Origin: a virus
Length of the DNA stretch: 62,566 nucleotides
IMG/VR virus record: IMGVR_UViG_3300027779_000030
Coordinates: 1 to 62,566 of that record
Direction: 5' to 3' (one strand)
Made by a program: the position numbers and the translations under genes. Below the pieces are notes generated by a model. It saw only the letters and a list, made by a program, of their open reading frames with translations. It was not told the DNA's origin and did not search any database. The first letter of the stretch is position 1. Every line of letters begins with the position of its first letter. This document shows positions 1,010-25,491 of this stretch, in pieces.

Positions 1010-3445
1010 TTAAGCTGATGTTGTTTTTATATCTAATCGCTTTTCAATCTTTCTAGCTGATGTGATTTGTTTAGCTGCATCCCTTCCCCATCCTGCATTA
1101 GCTCTTGCACACATTTGTACAGCCTCATCTGATGTCCTAAATGAGTTGGGATCTATACTTCTACTCTTTAACCTATTCAATAGGAAAAGAACTGCTACTT
1201 TTGCTGCTAGATTTATGTCATTAAGTTTATCTGGATTAGATACAATATCCACTCCAGTTTCTTTTGCATATTTCTTATACGATTGCTTAAATGTAACTTG
1301 GTTAAATCCTCTTCCTCTATATTTATATCCGTCTCCAGGTAATACTGGGTCGTCAGATTTATTATTCCAGGTGTGGTATCCATTTTTAACTGATATGTGA
1401 CCGTATATTGTGTCATAAAAAGCAACATCATCTTTCTTTAATACATCTACTTCTGCTACGGTTAAATGTTTAAGTGTGCCTTTAAAAACAGACTTTAGGT
1501 ATGAACCTCCACTTCTGCTATATGAATATTCATTTTTAGGAACGAATGAGGTTTCTTTTCCAATAACTGATAAGAAACCAATTATTGTATTAGGGTTAGT
1601 TATTCCATGTTGTTTTGCTACTGTTTCTAATACCGCTATATTTTTAGCGGCAGCTCCCGTATAATTATGAGTTATGCTTGATTCTCCCGTTCTAACAATA
1701 TAGTTATTACTATCGGTATATGCCGATGTTCCATACCAGTGATTAAAGTAGTTTACAATAATCTTAGCCCATGCTTTTTCTGTAACATCTTGCTCAGATC
1801 CCGCTTCTTTATATAAAAATACCTTATTATTTTCTAGTTTGCAGACTCCTAAGTCTTGCCCTCTTCTATTAGATACGCTATATTCAATTTTATCTTTTCT
1901 ATTACCTTTTCTAAAGTATAAGACTCTTTTTTCTTCCCTATCCCATATTTCAAATTTCTTTGCTCCATATCTGGCGGAACTTTTCTTCTTTGATGTAGAT
2001 TTAGTTCTACCGGTCAAAACTTCTGCTGTTTCCGAATTAACCTCTCCGGTCACAGTTAGGTTGTTATCTTTTTGGAATTTTTTGATTTGTCCTCTAGTTT
2101 CTTTTCCAATTTTTCCATCCACTCCATATTTTGGAAGAGGATATCCTTTTTGAACCAGTGCTAATTGTATTTCTTTGACTTCATCGGTGTTTGACCCAAA
2201 TGATTCTGTTTTTACAGGTTTAACTTTATTAGTGTTTGTAATCTTTCCTTCTGTTACATACTTTTTATAAAATTGGGATGGAAATTCAAAATGTCCCTGC
2301 TCAATTCTTTCTACTATTTGTTTTGATTCCTCTAATTGTCGGCTTAGGCTTTCCCATCTACCATCATTGTAGAATTTAGCCATTCCCGGGCTTCCATATG
2401 TAAATACTACGGTTCCCTCTTGAGAAGGAAAATTAGATAGACTAAAATTCTTAGGTATAGATGGATCTATTAATCCGATTTTATCTACGTTACATCTATT
2501 TGCAACCTTAAATACTAGAAGTGCTCCTAGTGAGAATCCAGTTAAGTATATTTCCCCGACTCCCCTATCTCTTGCTTTTTTAATATAACTTACTATTGAT
2601 GATGTTGACGCTGCTTTCTTAAGAGCTCCACTTGTATCTGAATCAAAGGTAACAACCTCCCATGTTTTTTGTATTTCACTAGGAATATGTTTCTTTAGCT
2701 TTTCTCCAGAATAATTTTTTCCTCCAATAGCAATTAATATTCCCTTTACTTTATTACCTTCTGGGTTGGTTGATTCTTCTTCAGTAAAATCAGTCGAGGC
2801 ATTTGCTACTTTAGTTGCAATAGCATCTTCAAATTCTTTAGTCCTACTTCCTTTAAAGTAATCAGTAAATCCGATTAGGGAACTTTGAGATAATTTTCTA
2901 TTATGTATTCCAACCCTATGCCCTTCTCCAGATTTTTCATCATTTGTATTTCCCTCTATTGTCTTAAATGTTTTACTACTAACGTCAACTGCAGTTACTA
3001 TACCAGTATGTCCCTTACCACTCCCAGGTCTAGACATTATAAAAACTTGACCTGGCTTAACCAACGATGGGTTATTTCTAGCTGCGTCTATGTTTATTTT
3101 AACATCAGCATCTGATCTATCCCAGTGCCTAAGCACCCCAGCTGTTTGCGGAAGGGTATTAGCAATGTTTAGTGCACTACATAAATCATTGTGCATTGTA
3201 TATACAAATGCCATACACCAAGGGTATCCAGTATTTGGTAATGCTTTTCCGCTTTTATTATTATTAAGACCGGACGTCTTAACGTATCTATCAACATCAG
3301 TACCATGGTTTTTACCACGAGGTACCTCTTTTACTGGATAGTTTTTAACTAGTATTTCAGCAAATTTTTCTCCTGCTTCAGTAGGATCTTCAATAGATAG
3401 GGCATTTTCATGCAGCCAATTTTCAAAACTTGTAAATCTTTTCAT
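1010..3445 (-). CDS. Multidomain lytic protein: CHAP + alpha/beta-hydrolase + peptidoglycan-binding + GH19-like
   Basis: The 811-residue protein reads as four enzymatic or binding modules. Residues ~45-200 resemble a CHAP amidase/endopeptidase, with Cys77 (YPWCMAF), His146 (GKGHTGIV) and an EGN motif at 164-166. Residues ~230-395 look like an alpha/beta-hydrolase, with nucleophile elbow GFSLG (Ser305) and plausible Asp327 and His385 partners. Residues ~418-478 form a PG_binding_1 domain (VDGKIGKETRGQIKKFQ). Residues ~600-790 resemble GH19 chitinase/lysozyme, with Glu631 in GKETSF and the YRGRGFNQVTF signature at ~709. There is no signal peptide. The N-terminus MKRFTSFENWLHE|NA resembles T4 capsid-targeting peptides. 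It is probably a virion-borne or endolysin-type wall hydrolase; the hydrolase module could be an esterase or lipase acting on lipid or wall esters. Domain calls are by motif only. Confidence 0.85.
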   Translation of the reverse strand: MKRFTSFENWLHENALSIEDPTEAGEKFAEILVKNYPVKEVPRGKNHGTDVDRYVKTSGLNNNKSGKALPNTGYPWCMAFVYTMHNDLCSALNIANTLPQTAGVLRHWDRSDADVKINIDAARNNPSLVKPGQVFIMSRPGSGKGHTGIVTAVDVSSKTFKTIEGNTNDEKSGEGHRVGIHNRKLSQSSLIGFTDYFKGSRTKEFEDAIATKVANASTDFTEEESTNPEGNKVKGILIAIGGKNYSGEKLKKHIPSEIQKTWEVVTFDSDTSGALKKAASTSSIVSYIKKARDRGVGEIYLTGFSLGALLVFKVANRCNVDKIGLIDPSIPKNFSLSNFPSQEGTVVFTYGSPGMAKFYNDGRWESLSRQLEESKQIVERIEQGHFEFPSQFYKKYVTEGKITNTNKVKPVKTESFGSNTDEVKEIQLALVQKGYPLPKYGVDGKIGKETRGQIKKFQKDNNLTVTGEVNSETAEVLTGRTKSTSKKKSSARYGAKKFEIWDREEKRVLYFRKGNRKDKIEYSVSNRRGQDLGVCKLENNKVFLYKEAGSEQDVTEKAWAKIIVNYFNHWYGTSAYTDSNNYIVRTGESSITHNYTGAAAKNIAVLETVAKQHGITNPNTIIGFLSVIGKETSFVPKNEYSYSRSGGSYLKSVFKGTLKHLTVAEVDVLKKDDVAFYDTIYGHISVKNGYHTWNNKSDDPVLPGDGYKYRGRGFNQVTFKQSYKKYAKETGVDIVSNPDKLNDINLAAKVAVLFLLNRLKSRSIDPNSFRTSDEAVQMCARANAGWGRDAAKQITSARKIEKRLDIKTTSA

Positions 3446-3450
3446 ATCTT

Positions 3451-3462
3451 AATTATTTATCT
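3451..3462 (-). promoter_or_regulatory. Weak late-type motif before the lytic gene
   Basis: AGATAAATAATT on the minus strand. The core lies only 15 nt from the ATG at 3445 and overlaps the stop of the Nudix gene. It may be a promoter for the 811-residue gene, or chance. Confidence 0.3.
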
Positions 3463-3951
3463 TACTCGATCTAGTATAATTAACTGGGATCGATTGATTA
3501 TTTCATACGCTTTATCGACTGGTACAAATCCTGCCCAATCAATTTCTTCTATTTGAATATCTTCTTTATTAACGGTTAGTTCTGACATGCCTAACTCAGA
3601 TAAATCATCTACTCTATAGATATAATAATATAACTGCCAAGACACTTCTCCCTTTCTATTATAGGAGTTGGCAACGTTTACCTCTTTATCTAAAACTCTA
3701 GGATTTATAGATATTCCGGTTTCTTCTTTTACTTCTCGTACAGCAGCTTCTAGGTAATCCTCTCCATTTTCAATTCCACCCTTAGGAATACCATATGCAT
3801 TTCTTTCTTTATTTGAGTCGGATGCATGTACTAATAATATATTATTTTTATATAGTATACATACGCCTGCTGCTTTTTTAATCCCTCCACTCTTAGATTC
3901 AGTTATCCTTTTTAACTTATTTCTACTATTATATCGCTTAACTCTTATCAT
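3457..3951 (-). CDS. Nudix hydrolase
   Basis: The 164-residue protein carries a complete Nudix box, GGIENGEDYLEAAVREVKEE followed by TGI, matching GX5EX7REUXEEXGU. The acidic residues that bind the metal are all present. Nudix enzymes hydrolyse nucleoside diphosphates linked to another moiety (mutagenic dNTPs, NAD(H), ADP-ribose, RNA 5' ends or dinucleoside polyphosphates); the substrate cannot be told from sequence. The start overlaps the 3' end of the bS21 gene by 14 bases, so translation is probably coupled. It is the third gene of the ATP-grasp/bS21/Nudix unit read from the late-type promoter at 4990-5004. Confidence 0.92.
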   Translation of the reverse strand: MIRVKRYNSRNKLKRITESKSGGIKKAAGVCILYKNNILLVHASDSNKERNAYGIPKGGIENGEDYLEAAVREVKEETGISINPRVLDKEVNVANSYNRKGEVSWQLYYYIYRVDDLSELGMSELTVNKEDIQIEEIDWAGFVPVDKAYEIINRSQLIILDRVR

Positions 3952-4120
3952 ATCTATTTTTATATTTTGCCTTACTTAATTGTTCTCTTCTACGTTGGGA
4001 TTTTTTCTTGAACGTTCTTCTTTCTCTAAGTTCTCTAATCGTTCCTATTTTATCCACTTTTTGTCTATATGCCTTAAGTACGTAATCTATCCTCTTACCT
4101 TTAGTTTTAATAATTATCAT
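3938..4120 (-). CDS. rpsU: Phage-encoded ribosomal protein bS21 homologue
   Basis: The 60-residue, very basic protein aligns over its whole length with bS21 of the Bacteroidota type. It has the MIII-K start, D12-Y-V-L-K-A-Y, K24-x-GT-x-R-E-L-R-E-R-R-T-F at 24-37, and K-S-x-R-R-R-x-Q-L-x-K-A-x-Y at 40-53. Tyr53 falls at the position of the conserved Tyr (about 54) that in Flavobacterium johnsoniae helps bS21 hide the anti-Shine-Dalgarno end of 16S rRNA. bS21 sits at the mRNA exit of the 30S subunit and is loosely held, so a phage copy can replace the host protein. The ATG overlaps the TGA of the upstream ATP-grasp-like gene (ATGA). Identification is from memory of the family, without a database search. 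Confidence 0.85.
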   Translation of the reverse strand: MIIIKTKGKRIDYVLKAYRQKVDKIGTIRELRERRTFKKKSQRRREQLSKAKYKNRYDKS

Positions 4121-4977
4121 TTACTTAAATATTTTGAATAATCAATGGTGTGCTTTGATTTAAATAACAATGCATCATATTGTTTATCTTTAAAGTAAGG
4201 AGCTACGTTTTCTTTTATTATTTTATGTTTTACCCAATTTGGAAAATTAGATTGATAAAAATCAGAGTATGCAGATTCATACATTTCTACTGCTTGATAT
4301 GGATTAATATTAGATACTTCCTCTATTTTATCTAGGTATATTTTTCCGTCGCTTGATTCTATTAATCGTATAGAATAAAAATCTAGGTCATATTTAGAAT
4401 ATATGTCCTTTGATATAGATTTTAATTCATTTAAGTAGTCAAATCTTTTTAACTTGCAATCTATTCTATATTTGTTTATTATTTCCTCTAAACAAATAGG
4501 AGAATCTTTAAATACTATTGCTTTGAATCTTGTATTTGGAATAATATCTTCTGAGAATGTTTTATATATTGAATTTGATTTTTTAAGCTTTCCTATTGTT
4601 TTATACCTATTCTCAGATGTTTCATTTTTTGCGACTACTGGAAATTTAAGCTTTTTTATATTTTTTATATCACTTACTCTCTTAGGAATATAGTCATTTT
4701 CAAAAAGATCTTCATATACCGATTCACTATTTGGAATAGAAGAAAGACCATATGTAAACACGTCATTCTCATTAATTATTGAATAATCTAGTGAGAATGA
4801 GTTACACATTATTACTGGTCTACTGTTATCTAATTCATTAAATTCGAAAACATTAGAAATATTATCAAAGTATGCGTATTCTAGTTTTTCATTGGATGCC
4901 ATAATTACCCTATTTAAATAGGAATTCGGATCTTTTGAAATAAGCTTAGAATATTCACCAAACGTCTTAAGCACCAT
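4117..4977 (-). CDS. Putative ATP-grasp-like protein
   Basis: No family is certain for this 286-residue protein, but the order of motifs suggests an ATP-grasp fold. A lysine-bearing strand FPVVAKNE (~111-118) would contact nucleotide. It is followed by an EDII...RFKAIVFKD pair of strands (~144-158) and a late acidic segment DLDFYSIRLIESSDGKIYLD (~197-216) running into IEEVSNINP, reminiscent of the metal-binding E-x-N of RimK/carboxylate-amine ligases. If correct, it would ligate an amine to a carboxylate using ATP. Being first in an overlapping operon with bS21 raises the possibility that a ribosomal protein is a substrate, but nothing in the sequence shows this. It could also be a degenerate or unrelated protein. 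Confidence 0.45.
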   Translation of the reverse strand: MVLKTFGEYSKLISKDPNSYLNRVIMASNEKLEYAYFDNISNVFEFNELDNSRPVIMCNSFSLDYSIINENDVFTYGLSSIPNSESVYEDLFENDYIPKRVSDIKNIKKLKFPVVAKNETSENRYKTIGKLKKSNSIYKTFSEDIIPNTRFKAIVFKDSPICLEEIINKYRIDCKLKRFDYLNELKSISKDIYSKYDLDFYSIRLIESSDGKIYLDKIEEVSNINPYQAVEMYESAYSDFYQSNFPNWVKHKIIKENVAPYFKDKQYDALLFKSKHTIDYSKYLSK

Positions 4978-4989
4978 ATAATTGTTTCA

Positions 4990-5004
4990 TTTTTATTATT
5001 TATA
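4990..5004 (-). promoter_or_regulatory. Late-type promoter motif, ATP-grasp/bS21/Nudix operon
   Basis: Read on the minus strand the site is TATAAATAATAAAAA, identical in its first eight bases to the T4 late promoter TATAAATA. The ATAAATA core begins 26 nt before the ATG at 4977. Confidence 0.65.
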
Positions 5005-5008
5005 GTAA

Positions 5009-5024
5009 GATAAATAAAATAAAA
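5009..5024 (+). promoter_or_regulatory. Late-type promoter motif
   Basis: GATAAATAAAATAAAA, identical to the sites at 14507-14522 and 61049-61064. The core begins 25 nt before the ATG at 5035. It is back to back with the minus-strand site at 4990-5004. Confidence 0.65.
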
Positions 5025-5034
5025 TTGACGAGTA

Positions 5035-6141
5035 ATGATCAAATCATTTAATTCATGGGACGATGTTAATGAAGCTAAGATTAGAGGAAAGCAGATATTA
5101 AGGTCCCCGAGTGGAAAAAGACAAAAGATTGCATTTAAAGTCCAAGCGGATAATAAATTTTTAATTAAAATCATTCATATGAATGATATTATTGTGGATG
5201 GAAAAATGACATTGGAAGGAGCTAAAGCTATAACTAATTTTATTAATAGTCAACTTGCCTTAGTAAATACTATCGGAAAAATAGATTCTACTTTTTTTAG
5301 TACTAAGTTTATTATATACACAGTAAAGAAAGACACTAATCGACAAGAAAAAGTTCAATTTACAATAGTATCAGATTCAGAACACCCAGAAATTCCAGCA
5401 GATACTCAATTTATATCTAGTGAAGATGCTGCTGCTCTTTTAGTAGCATATAATGCAACTAATACAGACGCAGTTGATTCAGGATTAAATGATGTTGTTG
5501 TTGATAATGAAGAAACAGTAGTAGTTGATGACACTGATGATGAACCGGAAATTGTAGAAGATGAAGGATCTGAAGAAGATGCAGAAGGATCTGAAGAAAT
5601 TGACGAAGAACTTTGGGTAAATGGATATAAGTTTATGTATACAATGAGAACTAACATGAAGACATACCTAATGAAGTTTGTAGAAGGTGGAGCAATTGAT
5701 GCTAACGTTAAAGGAGAAGATTCTCCAAATGGAGCAGTTTCTTGGGAAGATCCAAAAATTATGTGGTACACTGATTTAGATAATGCAGATGCAGGAACTA
5801 CATATGCTAAATGGGTGGATGAAGGAGCTCCTTTATATATTGATCAAGAAATTACTCATAAAATGGATGTAGACTTCTTTACTAAAATGTTTACCGATGA
5901 AGAATATAGAGATTCAATACTTAAAAAATATAATGATGAGTATGGTGATTCTGAAGTAAATTTAGAGAATATTAAAAATATGTTATATTATAAAGATAAT
6001 ACTAGGATTTTTCCATCTACTGTTAAAGGTAACGTAACAACTGGTGATGAGGTTGTAGCTACTACAGGAAAAGAAGTAGACATCGCTGCTGCTAAAGAAT
6101 ATGAAGATAACATAGTAAAAACTAAAAGAAAAACTTATTAA
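5035..6141 (+). CDS. Acidic protein of unknown function, possible internal virion protein
   Basis: No recognisable family. The 368-residue protein has an N-terminal ~115-residue segment with regular beta/alpha character, an extremely acidic linker (~155-195, runs of Glu/Asp with DDTDDEPEIVEDEGSEEDA), and a C-terminal part rich in Tyr, Trp and Asp. The start MIKSFNSWDDVNEA resembles the capsid-targeting N-termini of T4 internal proteins (MKTYQEFIAEA), with VNE|A at the place of the I-A-E|A cleavage site. It is the first gene of a two-gene plus-strand unit. A scaffold-like or capsid-internal role is inference. Confidence 0.8.
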   Translation: MIKSFNSWDDVNEAKIRGKQILRSPSGKRQKIAFKVQADNKFLIKIIHMNDIIVDGKMTLEGAKAITNFINSQLALVNTIGKIDSTFFSTKFIIYTVKKDTNRQEKVQFTIVSDSEHPEIPADTQFISSEDAAALLVAYNATNTDAVDSGLNDVVVDNEETVVVDDTDDEPEIVEDEGSEEDAEGSEEIDEELWVNGYKFMYTMRTNMKTYLMKFVEGGAIDANVKGEDSPNGAVSWEDPKIMWYTDLDNADAGTTYAKWVDEGAPLYIDQEITHKMDVDFFTKMFTDEEYRDSILKKYNDEYGDSEVNLENIKNMLYYKDNTRIFPSTVKGNVTTGDEVVATTGKEVDIAAAKEYEDNIVKTKRKTY

Positions 6142-6157: not shown

Positions 6158-7783
6158 ATGTATAACCCTAACTTTTATAGAAATTATGGAACATATTTAG
6201 TAGAACAATCTACTGTTGTTTCTGATGAACTTGATCCTAGACTAAAGGGATACTTAGAAAACGACTCTTTCTTAGAGCACATTATGCCTGAATTAGAGAA
6301 TACTCCTGATGGGGAAACTAAGGAAATAGTAATAGTCGATAAAAATGAATTTGGAATATTAGATGAGGATAAGATATATCTAAAAGTTGATAAGTCTAAT
6401 CCGCAAGCTCCTATTTTTAGCATGTGGATATTAAATGACGAATATATTTATGGTGGTATTGATTTTGATTTACTTTCTACTATTGTACATAATGCTGCTG
6501 ATGAAGGATCTGTTATTGGTTATGTTGGAAATCTAATAGGCTCTATATTTGGAGCTGGAGATGCTGGGGATTCTGGGACAGATGAAGATACAATAGTTGC
6601 AGCAAGTGCTGCCCTTCATCAACTTGCTCATGAGAAAAGCATAGATGCAATGTTATACTTTGATAAGTTAGAAGAAATATACGCTGGAAAATATGGAGAA
6701 AGTTTAAAAGATATGCTAGAGACTGAATTTTCTGGAAGAGCAGAAGTTTCTGCATTACAAGCATTTAGGAGAGAAATTACTCCTTCAGTTTTAAGAGGAA
6801 TGAATCCTTTAACTATATTAGGAGATATTGCATTAACTGTAGTTACTCTTGGAGGATCTTCTGCATTTATGGCAGGATTAAGAGGAGCAACAGGAGGTGT
6901 TCAAGCCGCCAAAGGAATGAAAGGTATAAAGGGAGCAACTGTATTAGCCAGAGGAAGTGCTGCTATTGGATCAGGAGTAGGTGCTATATCTAGAGTAACT
7001 GGAATGGCTAAGCTATTTCAGAAAATGGGGCCAGCCGTTAGATTAAGAACTCTAACATCAGTAGGCGTTAAAACTGGTCATCCAATAAAGGTAATAAGCA
7101 CTAAGGGAGTAACCAGCATGAAGACTTTAGATCTATCAACAGATGTTACTAAATATTTAAAAGGCGCACAAAAGGCAACATTGGGTAAAAATCAATTAGC
7201 CTCGGCTCAATATGTTACTGTAATATCAAAAGGTGGAACGAAAAATGCCATGTTGTGGTCTGGTGTATTTGCTGGATCTGCTCCAAAAACACAAATCGCT
7301 ATTGCTACTGCAGGTAAACTAGCTGCTCCAGCAACAATTGCAGCAATGCACTCAGAAGCAGGAGGAGGAGAAGCTGCACCAGAAGCAAGCTTAGGAGCTA
7401 AAGGAGCAGAAGCTATGGGATGGTACGATACTCAAACTGCAGATCCTAGATCATTTATTGAAGCTCAAAAAGGAGCAGCAGCTACAGGTTTAGCTGAAAT
7501 AATATTTGATCTAAAGAAAGGTAGTGGTCTTTTTGGAAATACAACAAACCAGGAAGAATTACTAATGGCTTTAACTATTTTAAGTTTAGATGGAAAAGGA
7601 GCTAAAGAAGTTCAAGTAGCATATAAGAAACTTGATGGTGAAATGAACGTATACGCAGTACTAGATGATGAACTTGGGGGAGATATGTCAATGTTTGCAA
7701 AAGCACATTGGACTGCATGTACAGGAGAAGGAGCAGAGTATGCAGCTGGAATCAAGAATATTAGAGCAAGAATTAAAAAATAA
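6158..7783 (+). CDS. Gly/Ala-rich hydrophobic-core protein, putative internal or injected virion protein
   Basis: The 541-residue protein has no clear family. The N-terminus MYNPNFYRNYGTYLVE|QS fits the capsid-targeting pattern (L-x-E followed by a small or polar residue). Around residues 115-140 there is a Gly-rich hydrophobic stretch (VIGYVGNLIGSIFGAGDAG). Residues ~205-300 are rich in Gly, Ala and Val (MNPLTILGDIALTVVTLGGS), as in membrane-active proteins. The C-terminal ~90 residues (NQEELLMALTILSLDG...) resemble an alpha-helical repeat. The domain style is shared with the 634-residue protein at 8468-10372, though sequence identity is not obvious. An injected, membrane-inserting role is inferred. 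The gene is closed by the terminator at 7809-7837. Confidence 0.8.
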   Translation: MYNPNFYRNYGTYLVEQSTVVSDELDPRLKGYLENDSFLEHIMPELENTPDGETKEIVIVDKNEFGILDEDKIYLKVDKSNPQAPIFSMWILNDEYIYGGIDFDLLSTIVHNAADEGSVIGYVGNLIGSIFGAGDAGDSGTDEDTIVAASAALHQLAHEKSIDAMLYFDKLEEIYAGKYGESLKDMLETEFSGRAEVSALQAFRREITPSVLRGMNPLTILGDIALTVVTLGGSSAFMAGLRGATGGVQAAKGMKGIKGATVLARGSAAIGSGVGAISRVTGMAKLFQKMGPAVRLRTLTSVGVKTGHPIKVISTKGVTSMKTLDLSTDVTKYLKGAQKATLGKNQLASAQYVTVISKGGTKNAMLWSGVFAGSAPKTQIAIATAGKLAAPATIAAMHSEAGGGEAAPEASLGAKGAEAMGWYDTQTADPRSFIEAQKGAAATGLAEIIFDLKKGSGLFGNTTNQEELLMALTILSLDGKGAKEVQVAYKKLDGEMNVYAVLDDELGGDMSMFAKAHWTACTGEGAEYAAGIKNIRARIKK

Positions 7784-7808: not shown

Positions 7809-7837
7809 AAAAGAGAGCAATTAGCTCTCTTTTTTTT
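7809..7837 (+). terminator. Intrinsic terminator between convergent genes
   Basis: A ten-base perfect stem (AAAAGAGAGC / GCTCTCTTTT) with loop AATTA is followed by a T tract. The stop codon of the convergent minus-strand methyltransferase gene lies in the loop, so the element ends plus-strand transcripts just inside the opposite gene. It may act more weakly in the other direction. Confidence 0.9.
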
Positions 7838-8468
7838 GTATTCTAGATTTGATCTTATCTAAAATCTTTAATTTTTTATCGATTGATGGCCGTGATATTT
7901 CTCCATCTTTAGTATGGTAATATATGGATTTTTTACCATATGATGTTAAATACTCATCTTTTATATCAGATTCACATCTATCAAATATATCCTTTCTTGA
8001 AATTACAAAACATCCGTCTGGTATTTTAGAATACATTTTACTTTCATATATTGGATCATTGTACATTGTATTATCAATGTAGATGACAGTAGCATCTGAT
8101 ATATCAGAGTCAAAGAAAGATTCATTCAATATTGATATATTAGAATAGTCTAAATCTGGATAATCTATTTTAATATCATCTATGAATAAACATCTTTCCT
8201 TACTATATTCTATGCCCACTGACTTAAATACTTTATATTTTAATCCAATATGTATGGGTATTTTTCCAGTTCCACTTCCTAGATCATAGAATATTGTAGT
8301 ACTATTAAAGTAATCTTTAAATTTTTCAACTATTGCATCTATCGCATCAAAATTGCTTTCTCCGTATACGAGATGTTTTACTTCTAATCCTACTGTTTGA
8401 TTTGAATACTTTCCTCTAGATTTTATGGCGTGTATTTCCTTAAGGATTACATCTAACGGGTTGTTCAT
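7821..8468 (-). CDS. Class I SAM-dependent methyltransferase, DOT1-like motif I
   Basis: The 215-residue protein shows a clear SAM-binding motif I, FYDLGSGTGKIPIHIG (~57-72). This is followed by motif II VGIEYSKERC (~80-89) and a motif IV-like strand ATVIYIDNTM. The DLGSG...GIE arrangement is seen in DOT1-like lysine methyltransferases as well as in other small class I enzymes, so the substrate (protein, DNA or small molecule) is open. The ATG overlaps the last base of the upstream gene at 8468, so the two are co-translated. A phage protein-methyltransferase acting on host or virion proteins is one possibility. Confidence 0.85.
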   Translation of the reverse strand: MNNPLDVILKEIHAIKSRGKYSNQTVGLEVKHLVYGESNFDAIDAIVEKFKDYFNSTTIFYDLGSGTGKIPIHIGLKYKVFKSVGIEYSKERCLFIDDIKIDYPDLDYSNISILNESFFDSDISDATVIYIDNTMYNDPIYESKMYSKIPDGCFVISRKDIFDRCESDIKDEYLTSYGKKSIYYHTKDGEISRPSIDKKLKILDKIKSRIQKKES

Positions 8469-10484: not shown

Positions 10485-11492
10485 TTACTTAATAGAATTA
10501 AATATCCTCTGTAGTTCTTCTTTTTGCCTATTTAAAAGATCCTTTGAGTTAGAATCATATGCAGATATTAATTTTTTAATATCTTCTTTATTTTTTACAT
10601 ATAATAAATCTTTTAAGATTGGGTCCTCTATTAAAGTACGATTAGGATCATATTCTATTTGTATTGCGGCTAAGCAATTTGAAGCAAGAGTTTCATAAAA
10701 CCTATATGTTGTAACATTATCAAGGTGTTCCTCATCTCCAGTTATTAGTGAGACTTTAACGGTGTCCAGCTTATTCATTAAATCATCATGTTTTAATTTC
10801 TTAATAAATTCAGCTGGAACTTTATTAGATTTATATCCGATTAATAGATTATTAGTATCTTCTGGAAAATATTTTCTTAATTGATTCTCTCTAAAGGAAC
10901 CTCTCTTATCTCCATAATATACTAAATCCCATTCTTTTTCTTGAGGTAAATCTAATTGTTCTTTGTCTGAAAACCTATGTTTAAAAATATATGTAAACCA
11001 ATCTACCCTTTTCCAATTCTTAGGAGTATATCCTAAGAATTTATCTATTTTTGTTCCTGGGAATAGATAAATTGCCTCCTCCAATATCTTAGACCAACTT
11101 TCTATTGAGTCTGTGCATATATTAAATCTATTTGATATGATCTCTGCATAATTTAAAGGGGGTATCCTAGGGTCATTTACTAGCATATATATCTTACCTT
11201 CATATTTTGCTAAATCGTTACATATCTTTTCACAATGGTCTCCAAGAACTCCTCCAAAAAAATTAGGAGTACTTAGTTGCAATATTACTGCCCCATATTC
11301 TGAAAAATCTGTACTTTCGTAATCTATATAAAAATCTAAATCTTTAGTATTTCTATTCTTTTTACCAACGACGTCGACAGTTGCTCCCTTTTCTTCCATT
11401 AATTTCTTAAAGAACATCGCTTCTAGTCCTCTATGATTTTTATTATTATATGTAAGATTAGCAAGTACTGAAGTTATAGCTACTTTCTTCAT
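10485..11492 (-). CDS. Putative GT-B-type glycosyltransferase
   Basis: The 335-residue protein begins with MKKVAITSVLANL, a Rossmann-like first strand, and has alternating strand/helix pattern throughout. The C-terminal half (WDLVYYGDKRGSFRENQLRK, then TTYRFYETLASNCLAAIQ) has the layout of the second Rossmann domain of GT-B enzymes, where a late Glu in R-x-Y-E commonly binds the sugar-nucleotide. T4-like phages often glucosylate DNA with GT-B enzymes (alpha- and beta-glucosyltransferase), so DNA modification is possible. A virion- or host-surface target is equally open. It is the last gene of the AsnA-like/DUF6378-like/GT operon; its ATG overlaps the previous stop (ATGA). Confidence 0.6.
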   Translation of the reverse strand: MKKVAITSVLANLTYNNKNHRGLEAMFFKKLMEEKGATVDVVGKKNRNTKDLDFYIDYESTDFSEYGAVILQLSTPNFFGGVLGDHCEKICNDLAKYEGKIYMLVNDPRIPPLNYAEIISNRFNICTDSIESWSKILEEAIYLFPGTKIDKFLGYTPKNWKRVDWFTYIFKHRFSDKEQLDLPQEKEWDLVYYGDKRGSFRENQLRKYFPEDTNNLLIGYKSNKVPAEFIKKLKHDDLMNKLDTVKVSLITGDEEHLDNVTTYRFYETLASNCLAAIQIEYDPNRTLIEDPILKDLLYVKNKEDIKKLISAYDSNSKDLLNRQKEELQRIFNSIK

Positions 11493-24349: not shown

Positions 24350-24817
24350 TCATTGTGTAATAAGAAATATCCCTGCAATTATCGGAGAAATTGCTAATAT
24401 TGTAAAATATATTATGCTATATATTAATCTTCTTAAAGAATACTCTCTAAATGCAAATTTTATCTCTATTATATAGCCGTAGTGATCTAAGCTTTGAATT
24501 CGATCGTAATCTGCAGCAATTGAATCTAATATTCCTTCTTTTTTAAGAAATTCTGTAAATATTTTCATTTTGTCTTGAACAAACTTCAGTTCTACAGTTT
24601 CCTGTGAAGATTCCCCATATAGAAGTAGTTCAGGATTAAGATCTACTCCAAAGTACAGCTTATCCTGTTTAAGAGTTAGGCCAACTTGCTCTAATTTTCC
24701 ATTTTCTTTTAATTCTTCAAGAATTGTTTTATACTTTTTGTAATATTTCAATTCAGTTATACAATACTTTAGATAATTGTATACGCTTTTAGGTTTTATA
24801 TAATTTAATATGTTCAT
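24350..24817 (-). CDS. Phage protein with C-terminal membrane anchor, unknown function
   Basis: The 155-residue protein has a helical, Lys-rich N-terminus and a central segment LTLKQDKLYFGVDLNPELLL that recalls a widespread phage family (VGL-x-x-D-x-x-x-x-Y-x-VV-x-LPPE). A C-terminal membrane segment follows (SIIYFTILAISPIIAGIFLI, ~132-152). The function of that family is not known to me. It overlaps the sigma-factor gene by four bases. Confidence 0.65.
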   Translation of the reverse strand: MNILNYIKPKSVYNYLKYCITELKYYKKYKTILEELKENGKLEQVGLTLKQDKLYFGVDLNPELLLYGESSQETVELKFVQDKMKIFTEFLKKEGILDSIAADYDRIQSLDHYGYIIEIKFAFREYSLRRLIYSIIYFTILAISPIIAGIFLITQ

Positions 24818-25491
24818 AAGTCGAATATGTGATTTAGTGTTTCTTTAAATGATGGATTTTTTTTCAATACCTTCTCCTTTAGATCAATTCTAACTTTTCT
24901 TAGCTTAGTTTTTACGGTATTCTCATTTATGTTATATTTTATAGCAATATTTTTAACTTTTTCTTTCTTTAACATCTTATCTATTGCTATATTTTTTAAT
25001 AAGTTGTCTTTTATTCCATTAATTTCATCAATAGTTATATTATATAATCTATCCCACTCGTGCTCAGTTTCGTGAAATATGTCAATATAATGATTTCCAT
25101 CTTTTTCTAGCCATGAAGTATCTCCACTATTTCCACCTTCAGAGTTACTTCTACTATATAATGTTGAAATAGAAGTAATTGGATTCCTTTTCTTTTGATA
25201 TAAGAAGAAAAGCGTTTCATTTCTAGCTATTGTATATATCCAAGTGGTAAATCTTCCTTTTTCTATATTAAATTTAGATATATTATTGAATATCTTTTTT
25301 AAAGTCCACTGTAACGCTTCGTCCGTGTCCTCATTGTTTTTACAATATTGCCATATATAATATCTAAGCTTGGGATATATTAATTGAGCTAATTCGTTTC
25401 TTTCCCTTTCTGTAATTTTATTATCAACTAATTTCTGTGATATTTCGTTAATTCTTTCGTTAATTATTTTATTAGTAGTTTCAAATCCCAT
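24814..25491 (-). CDS. ECF-like sigma-70 family factor, candidate late-gene sigma
   Basis: The 225-residue protein has the two-domain layout of ECF sigma factors. Region 2 spans ~25-95 (LRYYIWQYCKNNEDTDEALQ; KGRFTTWIYTIARNETLFFL), including the F-x-x-W-x-x-x-I-A-R-N core. Region 4 spans ~158-212 with a helix-turn-helix (VKNIAIKYNINENTVKTKLR) and a basic end. Sigma-2 would bind the -10 element, sigma-4 the -35. It lies among terminase and baseplate genes. The conserved ATAAATA motif in front of late genes, which has no obvious -35 partner, makes it the best candidate for a T4 gp55 counterpart. That link is inferred. Confidence 0.85.
   Translation of the reverse strand: MGFETTNKIINERINEISQKLVDNKITERERNELAQLIYPKLRYYIWQYCKNNEDTDEALQWTLKKIFNNISKFNIEKGRFTTWIYTIARNETLFFLYQKKRNPITSISTLYSRSNSEGGNSGDTSWLEKDGNHYIDIFHETEHEWDRLYNITIDEINGIKDNLLKNIAIDKMLKKEKVKNIAIKYNINENTVKTKLRKVRIDLKEKVLKKNPSFKETLNHIFDL

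Follow-up and report, generated by a model that had tools for sequence, protein, structure and literature searches.

The three overlapping genes at positions 3,457 to 4,977 of IMGVR_UViG_3300027779_000030, a 62.6-kb virus record analysed here over its full length of 62,566 nucleotides (the window) and judged by its gene content to be a fragment, form a conserved cassette in which a ribosomal protein bS21 is encoded between a degenerate protein of ATP-grasp fold and a Nudix hydrolase. With a probability of roughly 0.55, we understand the cassette as a late operon that supplies or replaces the bS21 of the host and, in addition, provides two proteins for loading into the virion, namely the Nudix hydrolase and the pseudo-ATP-grasp protein; both the ribosome step and the virion step are ones that we infer. 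A sequence-only reading of this DNA had recognized the three open reading frames, which lie on the minus strand, with the start of bS21 sharing the 4 nt of an ATGA (4117-4120) with the stop of the upstream 286-residue frame, and had interpreted them as a phage bS21 system. As an observation on the sequence this is confirmed, and it is stronger than was claimed, as the cassette is conserved. The features on which the argument draws are the following.

4117..4977, minus strand: putative pseudo-ATP-grasp protein, 286 aa (open reading frame, AlphaFold2 model, Foldseek, active-site columns)
3938..4120, minus strand: ribosomal protein bS21, 60 aa (PF01165, TIGR00030, best PDB match 7jil)
3962..3964, minus strand: codon of bS21 Tyr53, equivalent to Tyr54 of F. 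johnsoniae bS21 (alignment to 7jil)
3457..3951, minus strand: Nudix hydrolase, 164 aa, Nudix box intact, N-terminus MIRVKRYNSRNKLKRITE, a degraded capsid-targeting-like sequence (PF00293)
4991..5004, minus strand: late-type promoter-like element TATAAATAATAAAA of the cassette (motif and placement statistics)
5010..5017, plus strand: divergent copy ATAAATAA of the element, serving 5035-6141 (placement statistics)
1010..3445, minus strand: endolysin-like protein (CHAP, PG-binding) downstream of the cassette, with tag MKRFTSFENWLHE and its own ATAAATAA element
5035..6141, plus strand: divergent late protein, function unassigned, tag MIKSFNSWDDVNE (open reading frame, tag census)
6158..7783, plus strand: late protein, function unassigned, tag-like N-terminus MYNPNFYRNYGTYLVE (open reading frame, tag census)
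24814..25491, minus strand: phage sigma-70-family sigma factor (phrog_1740, E 5e-13; TIGR02937 above cut-off)

Besides the sigma factor, the window encodes a T4-like large terminase (TerL) and a baseplate wedge protein. The phage is large, uncultured and related to T4, and it probably infects Bacteroidota, the host being suggested by the bS21 only. The divergent protein at 5035..6141 is kept next to the cassette in relatives.

The identity of the 60-residue protein is established by profile search, both with Pfam PF01165 (E 1.6e-7; 31.4 bits, cut-off 27) and with the NCBIfam S21p equivalog TIGR00030 (E 2e-8; 34 bits, cut-off 28.95). Its best match in the PDB, and thus closest solved one, is the bS21 of F. 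johnsoniae (7jil, E 2.1e-9; McNutt et al. 2023, PMC9976891), with E. coli-type entries at E ∼0.02. Tyr53 of the window protein aligns with Tyr54 of 7jil, the Flavobacteriia position to which it had been assigned by the sequence-only reading, and tyrosine is found there in all 17 bS21 proteins encoded in cassettes of this type. Distinct from F. johnsoniae bS21, the window protein has a one-residue deletion near residue 8, a basic FKKKS where F-x-K-P-S stands, and a replacement of Phe23, which is shared by 17/17 cassette proteins and falls on one of the phage-specific divergent positions (PMC9723584). A genome scan for cellular relatives of the cassette bS21 found none.

The Tyr54-bearing bS21 of F. 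johnsoniae conceals the anti-Shine-Dalgarno (anti-SD) sequence, Tyr54 of the Bacteroidia protein stacking on A1534 of 16S rRNA, and ribosomes devoid of bS21 gain translation of the SD-bearing rpsU (PMC9976891). It had been suggested that Tyr53 makes the ribosome favour SD-free phage messages. We reject this on logic, for Bacteroidia ribosomes ignore the SD and the host messages are likewise SD-less (PMC9976891), so that Tyr53 gives no discrimination between phage and host; it should hold the ribosome in its normal, host-like mode. An extended SD precedes host rpsU in many Flavobacteriales, whereas the window bS21 start has none and an SD-like 4-mer occurs upstream of bS21 in just one of 17 cassettes. 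In 13/17 the bS21 start and the upstream stop share 4 or 1 nt; among the remaining four there is one 7-nt overlap, and three abut or leave a gap of ≤2 nt. Phage bS21 would be translated by reinitiation coupling, and, with no SD at its start and this dependence on the preceding stop, it would escape the SD-based autoregulation of host rpsU.

Cassettes were gathered by scans with the Nudix alignment, then with bS21 and then with the ATP-grasp family, which gave a sample of 26 ATP-grasp+Nudix cassettes (two of them, L159 and L161, near-copies). The sequence-only reading had made its case dependent on conservation of the trio in related genomes, and the same order is indeed found, with bS21 exactly between the other two genes, in 17/26. 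From the other nine bS21 is absent, and their contigs, which are fragments, have no PF01165 match in the slot or elsewhere. On the tree of the ATP-grasp and Nudix proteins, the presence of bS21 needs six changes, at least five of them forced by well-supported branches, which is most simply understood if the gene was lost repeatedly from one fixed position. Between the three cassette proteins the distance matrices correlate, as shared descent would give. TerL could be matched over its full length in five cassette phages and is 64-73% identical there to the window's, so that the cassette phages constitute one uncultured lineage. A related group has bS21 and Nudix genes without the ATP-grasp gene. 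In one cassette (L136:4858-5052) bS21 is strongly diverged, at 34 bits compared to 74-101 for the others, and the subclade neighbours have lost the gene; this copy is possibly decaying. In two others that lack bS21 (L027:3557-3964 and L028:3652-4014), an unrelated small protein family fills the gap between the ATP-grasp and Nudix genes.

Phage bS21 proteins are known from freshwater Bacteroidetes phages, where the gene lies on the reverse strand beside those for TerL, portal, protease and major capsid protein, is expressed late and encodes an aromatic residue 54; that of another phage was found incorporated into E. coli 70S ribosomes (PMC9723584). The window protein resembles those of the myoviruses of Chen et al. 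2022 (clades a-e; PMC9723584) in its Bacteroidota-type sequence, the aromatic residue 54 and the divergence in the Phe23 region, and the late expression reported there has its counterpart here in a late-type element upstream. The gene context is different: bS21 stands alone on the reverse strand among the TerL, portal, protease and capsid genes in the published phages, whereas in the window it belongs to a co-directional overlapping operon with the pseudo-ATP-grasp and Nudix genes, 22 kb from TerL. Three contigs (L117, L121, L102) have an arrangement that, by our own reading of the open reading frames, fits the published description, and in two of these the window TerL has no match. On sequence comparison, the cassette adds to the published bS21 phages a lineage whose gene context differs and whose TerL shows no detectable relationship to the published type. 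Our literature search found no paper joining phage bS21 with an ATP-grasp or Nudix protein. Three giant phages of 635-642 kb (LR745206, LR756502 and LR756504; L006, L007 and L008) have bS21 in other contexts again, and in two of them a DnaJ-like gene adjoins it.

The evidence on bS21 could also be accommodated by a simpler explanation, which we consider rather unlikely while giving it real weight: the phage protein would serve supply or maintenance only, restocking a loosely held, essential 30S protein after host shut-off with no selection of messages, and the neighbouring genes would be unrelated late genes whose synteny belongs to a single lineage. The retained Tyr and overall host-like sequence agree with this, as does the occurrence of the gene in unrelated contexts in other phages; the TerL identity of 64-73% in the testable trio phages, moreover, allows for synteny by descent. 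Two observations fit it poorly, namely the change of the phage-specific divergent Phe23 in 17/17 and the gene order held among bS21-bearing cassettes despite a pairwise ATP-grasp identity as low as 27%. On the reading that we prefer, phage bS21 would enter the host 30S subunits in late infection and there replace or top up host bS21, with initiation staying host-like and the anti-SD sequestered.

Late expression of the cassette is suggested by the element ATAAATAA, of which the window has 24 copies, both strands counted. Within 60 nt upstream it is found at 18/45 starts of open reading frames, ∼0.5 being expected; the distance to the start codon is mostly 23-32 nt and exactly 28 in seven cases; on their other strand, these upstream stretches contain two copies. 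The total of TATAAATA in the window shows no excess over chance, placement alone being significant. Apart from the cassette, ATAAATAA precedes endolysin, baseplate and fibre-like genes, in keeping with the earlier description of a late-type promoter element common to virion genes. Among the relatives, 17/26 have a matching element no more than ∼30 nt before the ATP-grasp gene, a count that leaves out a pattern match in L143 located 9 nt from the start; the remaining relatives have no such element there, and in the two inspected (L070, L136) a same-strand gene directly precedes the cassette. Judged by its motif, the cassette element would act as a promoter, and the sigma factor at 24814..25491 is a candidate reader of the ATAAATAA promoters. 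The messages had been described as leaderless-like and SD-free. The second part holds, with SD-like 4-mers at 1/45 window starts compared to a 9.7% background, a figure that indicates SD absence only; the first part is too strong, because the distance between motif and start codon would leave room for a leader, albeit a short one of ∼12-16 nt, if a -10 element is what the motif represents.

The protein encoded downstream of bS21, and overlapping it by 14 nt (3938-3951), is the Nudix hydrolase that it had been taken for (PF00293, E 3.4e-16). It appears active; the Nudix box GX5EX7REUXEEXGU is matched by the window copy and, by pattern, in 25/26 cassettes, L148 being off at one position. New in this study, at the level of sequence, are a capsid-targeting-like tag on most of the cassette Nudix proteins and a similar aromatic pair on all 26 pseudo-ATP-grasp proteins. 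The tag has the form of M, a few residues and F-x-x-[FY]-[IL]-x-E (e.g., MNFNDFINE, MIKTFSDFLNE, MMNFNEFINE). It is present by pattern in 28/36 distinct cassette Nudix proteins and by eye in 31/36, the three extra ones being L063-type copies in which MIKTFSDFLNE is visible but was trimmed by the script; it is found in 0/5 non-cassette Nudix proteins and in 0.3% of control stretches. Applied to the window N-termini alone, the pattern test is weak (4/46 compared to a 1.9% background), and the census of the Nudix family is the real test. All 26 pseudo-ATP-grasp proteins start with [KREN]-x-F-x-x-[YF] and are without the cleavage half. In the window, the endolysin-like protein and the two divergent late proteins are tagged and bS21 is not; the proteins at 1010-3445, 5035-6141 and 6158-7783 have an N-terminal F-x-x-[FWY]...[LIV]xE in common. 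An endolysin-like protein of another contig (L100:4195-5421), beside bS21 in a different context, has the matching tag FDQFINE.

The spacing seen in the cassette Nudix tag is also that of the capsid targeting sequence of the T4 internal protein IPIII. In the T4 sequence, residues 4 and 7 are responsible for targeting, and residues 8 and 10 for processing (PMC9026906). Furthermore, a lineage member with a 207-kb sequence (G017) encodes a Peptidase_S77 (above cut-off) and a Gp23 capsid protein, the latter with LFE, an LxE site, at about residue 54; the window fragment itself has no match to such a prohead protease of the gp21 type. In the same lineage member, a prohead protease-like domain (L170; G017:C1:52985-53314) lies inside a 666-residue open frame that is longer than a protease alone. 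Because the tag resembles the T4 capsid targeting sequence and a relative encodes the T4-type prohead protease and capsid protein, we predict that the Nudix hydrolase and the pseudo-ATP-grasp protein are virion-loaded. The likeness to the T4 internal proteins (PMC9026906) comprises the aromatic-x-x-aromatic-[IL]-x-E that most of the lineage's Nudix proteins carry, as well as a T4-type protease and Gp23 within the lineage; what differs is the cargo, here a Nudix enzyme to which a pseudo-ATP-grasp protein may be added, with packaging predicted from the sequence. Against this reading, the window's own Nudix protein has a degraded tag that ends in ITE and lacks the Phe pair, and its pseudo-ATP-grasp protein, with the N-terminus MVLKTFGEYSK and hence F-x-x-Y spacing, has no cleavage half.

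The tag could alternatively be another localization signal, since endolysin-like proteins carry it too. The Nudix hydrolase would then be a cytoplasmic enzyme of the late phase of the infection in which it is made, with products of the ADP-ribose, dinucleotide or capped-RNA kind as conceivable substrates; Nudix proteins of jumbo phages have been proposed to process ADP-ribose (PMC7824862). We hold this to be improbable in view of the aromatic and [IL]xE spacing, which is exactly that of the T4 capsid targeting sequence (PMC9026906 and the IPIII sequence), and of the T4-type protease and capsid protein of the lineage with the capsid LxE near residue 54. In the virion-loading scenario, which we retain, the Nudix and pseudo-ATP-grasp proteins would travel inside the capsid as internal (ejection) proteins and do their work when the next infection begins, instead of acting on bS21.

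The ATP-grasp fold proposed for the 286-residue protein is confirmed by its structural model, which comprises pre-ATP-grasp, RAGNYA and kinase-like domains. AlphaFold2 gave a pLDDT of 88.1 and a pTM of 0.85 from a 15-sequence alignment (pLDDT 42 with three sequences only), and Foldseek with this model against the PDB returned 415 chains at E ≤0.001, the top matches all being ATP-grasp proteins (PurK, Ddl, LysX/ArgX, synapsin; best E 7.4e-9). Sequence searches were less informative: the protein and 14 relatives have no convincing Pfam family match, with R2K matched by none of the 15 family members; a profile search of PDB sequences, based on an alignment of four ATP-grasp family members, found no credible match; and a genome scan for cellular relatives, using a subgroup alignment of the family, found none. 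A more distant homologue in the 462-kb giant phage LR756500 provides an independent connection to a true ATP-grasp protein. It scores 64 bits with a family HMM built without it, matches Pfam R2K_2 above cut-off and retains the motif ESN as well as the loop KPESGHSGIGIEKF. With the R2K clade, which includes CDC123 (Burroughs et al. 2015, PMC4431377), the window family shares the ATP-grasp fold, and it is homologous to this R2K_2-scoring protein; unlike that clade, it has lost the nucleotide loop and the catalytic residues. The glycine-rich nucleotide loop is deleted in 26/26 members and the preceding Lys is lost in 24/26, kept only in the window and L136. Gone from all 26 are also the metal-binding catalytic Glu (ExN, last strand), whose Asn partner is variable and a Glu in the window, and the Arg of the ExR motif typical of the ligases, in whose place I, V or T is found. 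Given the loss of the glycine-rich loop and the catalytic Glu throughout, the protein looks like a pseudo-enzyme. Since K126, G129, D199 and P226 (window numbering) are invariant or nearly so across the family and the active site is lost, it is under constraint, though not as a canonical ATP-grasp ligase.

Because the pseudo-ATP-grasp protein survives at least five changes in the presence of bS21, the latter is not its obligate partner. By analogy with the eIF2 regulator CDC123, it might still be an exchange or loading factor for bS21; we regard this as a speculative suggestion with little probability, which, if true, would make the cassette a dedicated ribosomal-protein swapping machine that has the Nudix hydrolase as a virion-delivered partner. 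Least probable is the RimK-like ligase of the sequence-only reading, which would modify a ribosomal protein, be it bS21 or a different one, and in this way bias the ribosome towards phage messages: while LysX/ArgX and RiPP peptide ligases are among the top Foldseek matches, the translational coupling with bS21 is conserved and phage R2K ATP-grasps have been proposed as protein modifiers (PMC4431377, PMC7824862), we reject it on the loss of the active site described above and on retention of the gene in the nine cassettes without bS21, and the bS21+Nudix pair of the related group also speaks against it.

Our study adds one more phage lineage, apparently a new one, to the short list of those encoding bS21. 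The 17 naturally diverged cassettes, together with the nine related ones without bS21, represent a test set for phage bS21 on Bacteroidota ribosomes, and the Nudix enzyme and the dead ATP-grasp protein are named as two candidates for virion loading. Near the cassette, the window also encodes on the minus strand a 215-aa protein (7821-8468) that matches the DOT1-like methyltransferase family PF08123 at E 4e-13, which is unexpected for a phage. A further minus-strand gene of the window (10485-11492) encodes a beta-glucosyltransferase-like protein (phrog_7922, E 5e-18), and similar proteins adjoin the cassette in L002 and L003.
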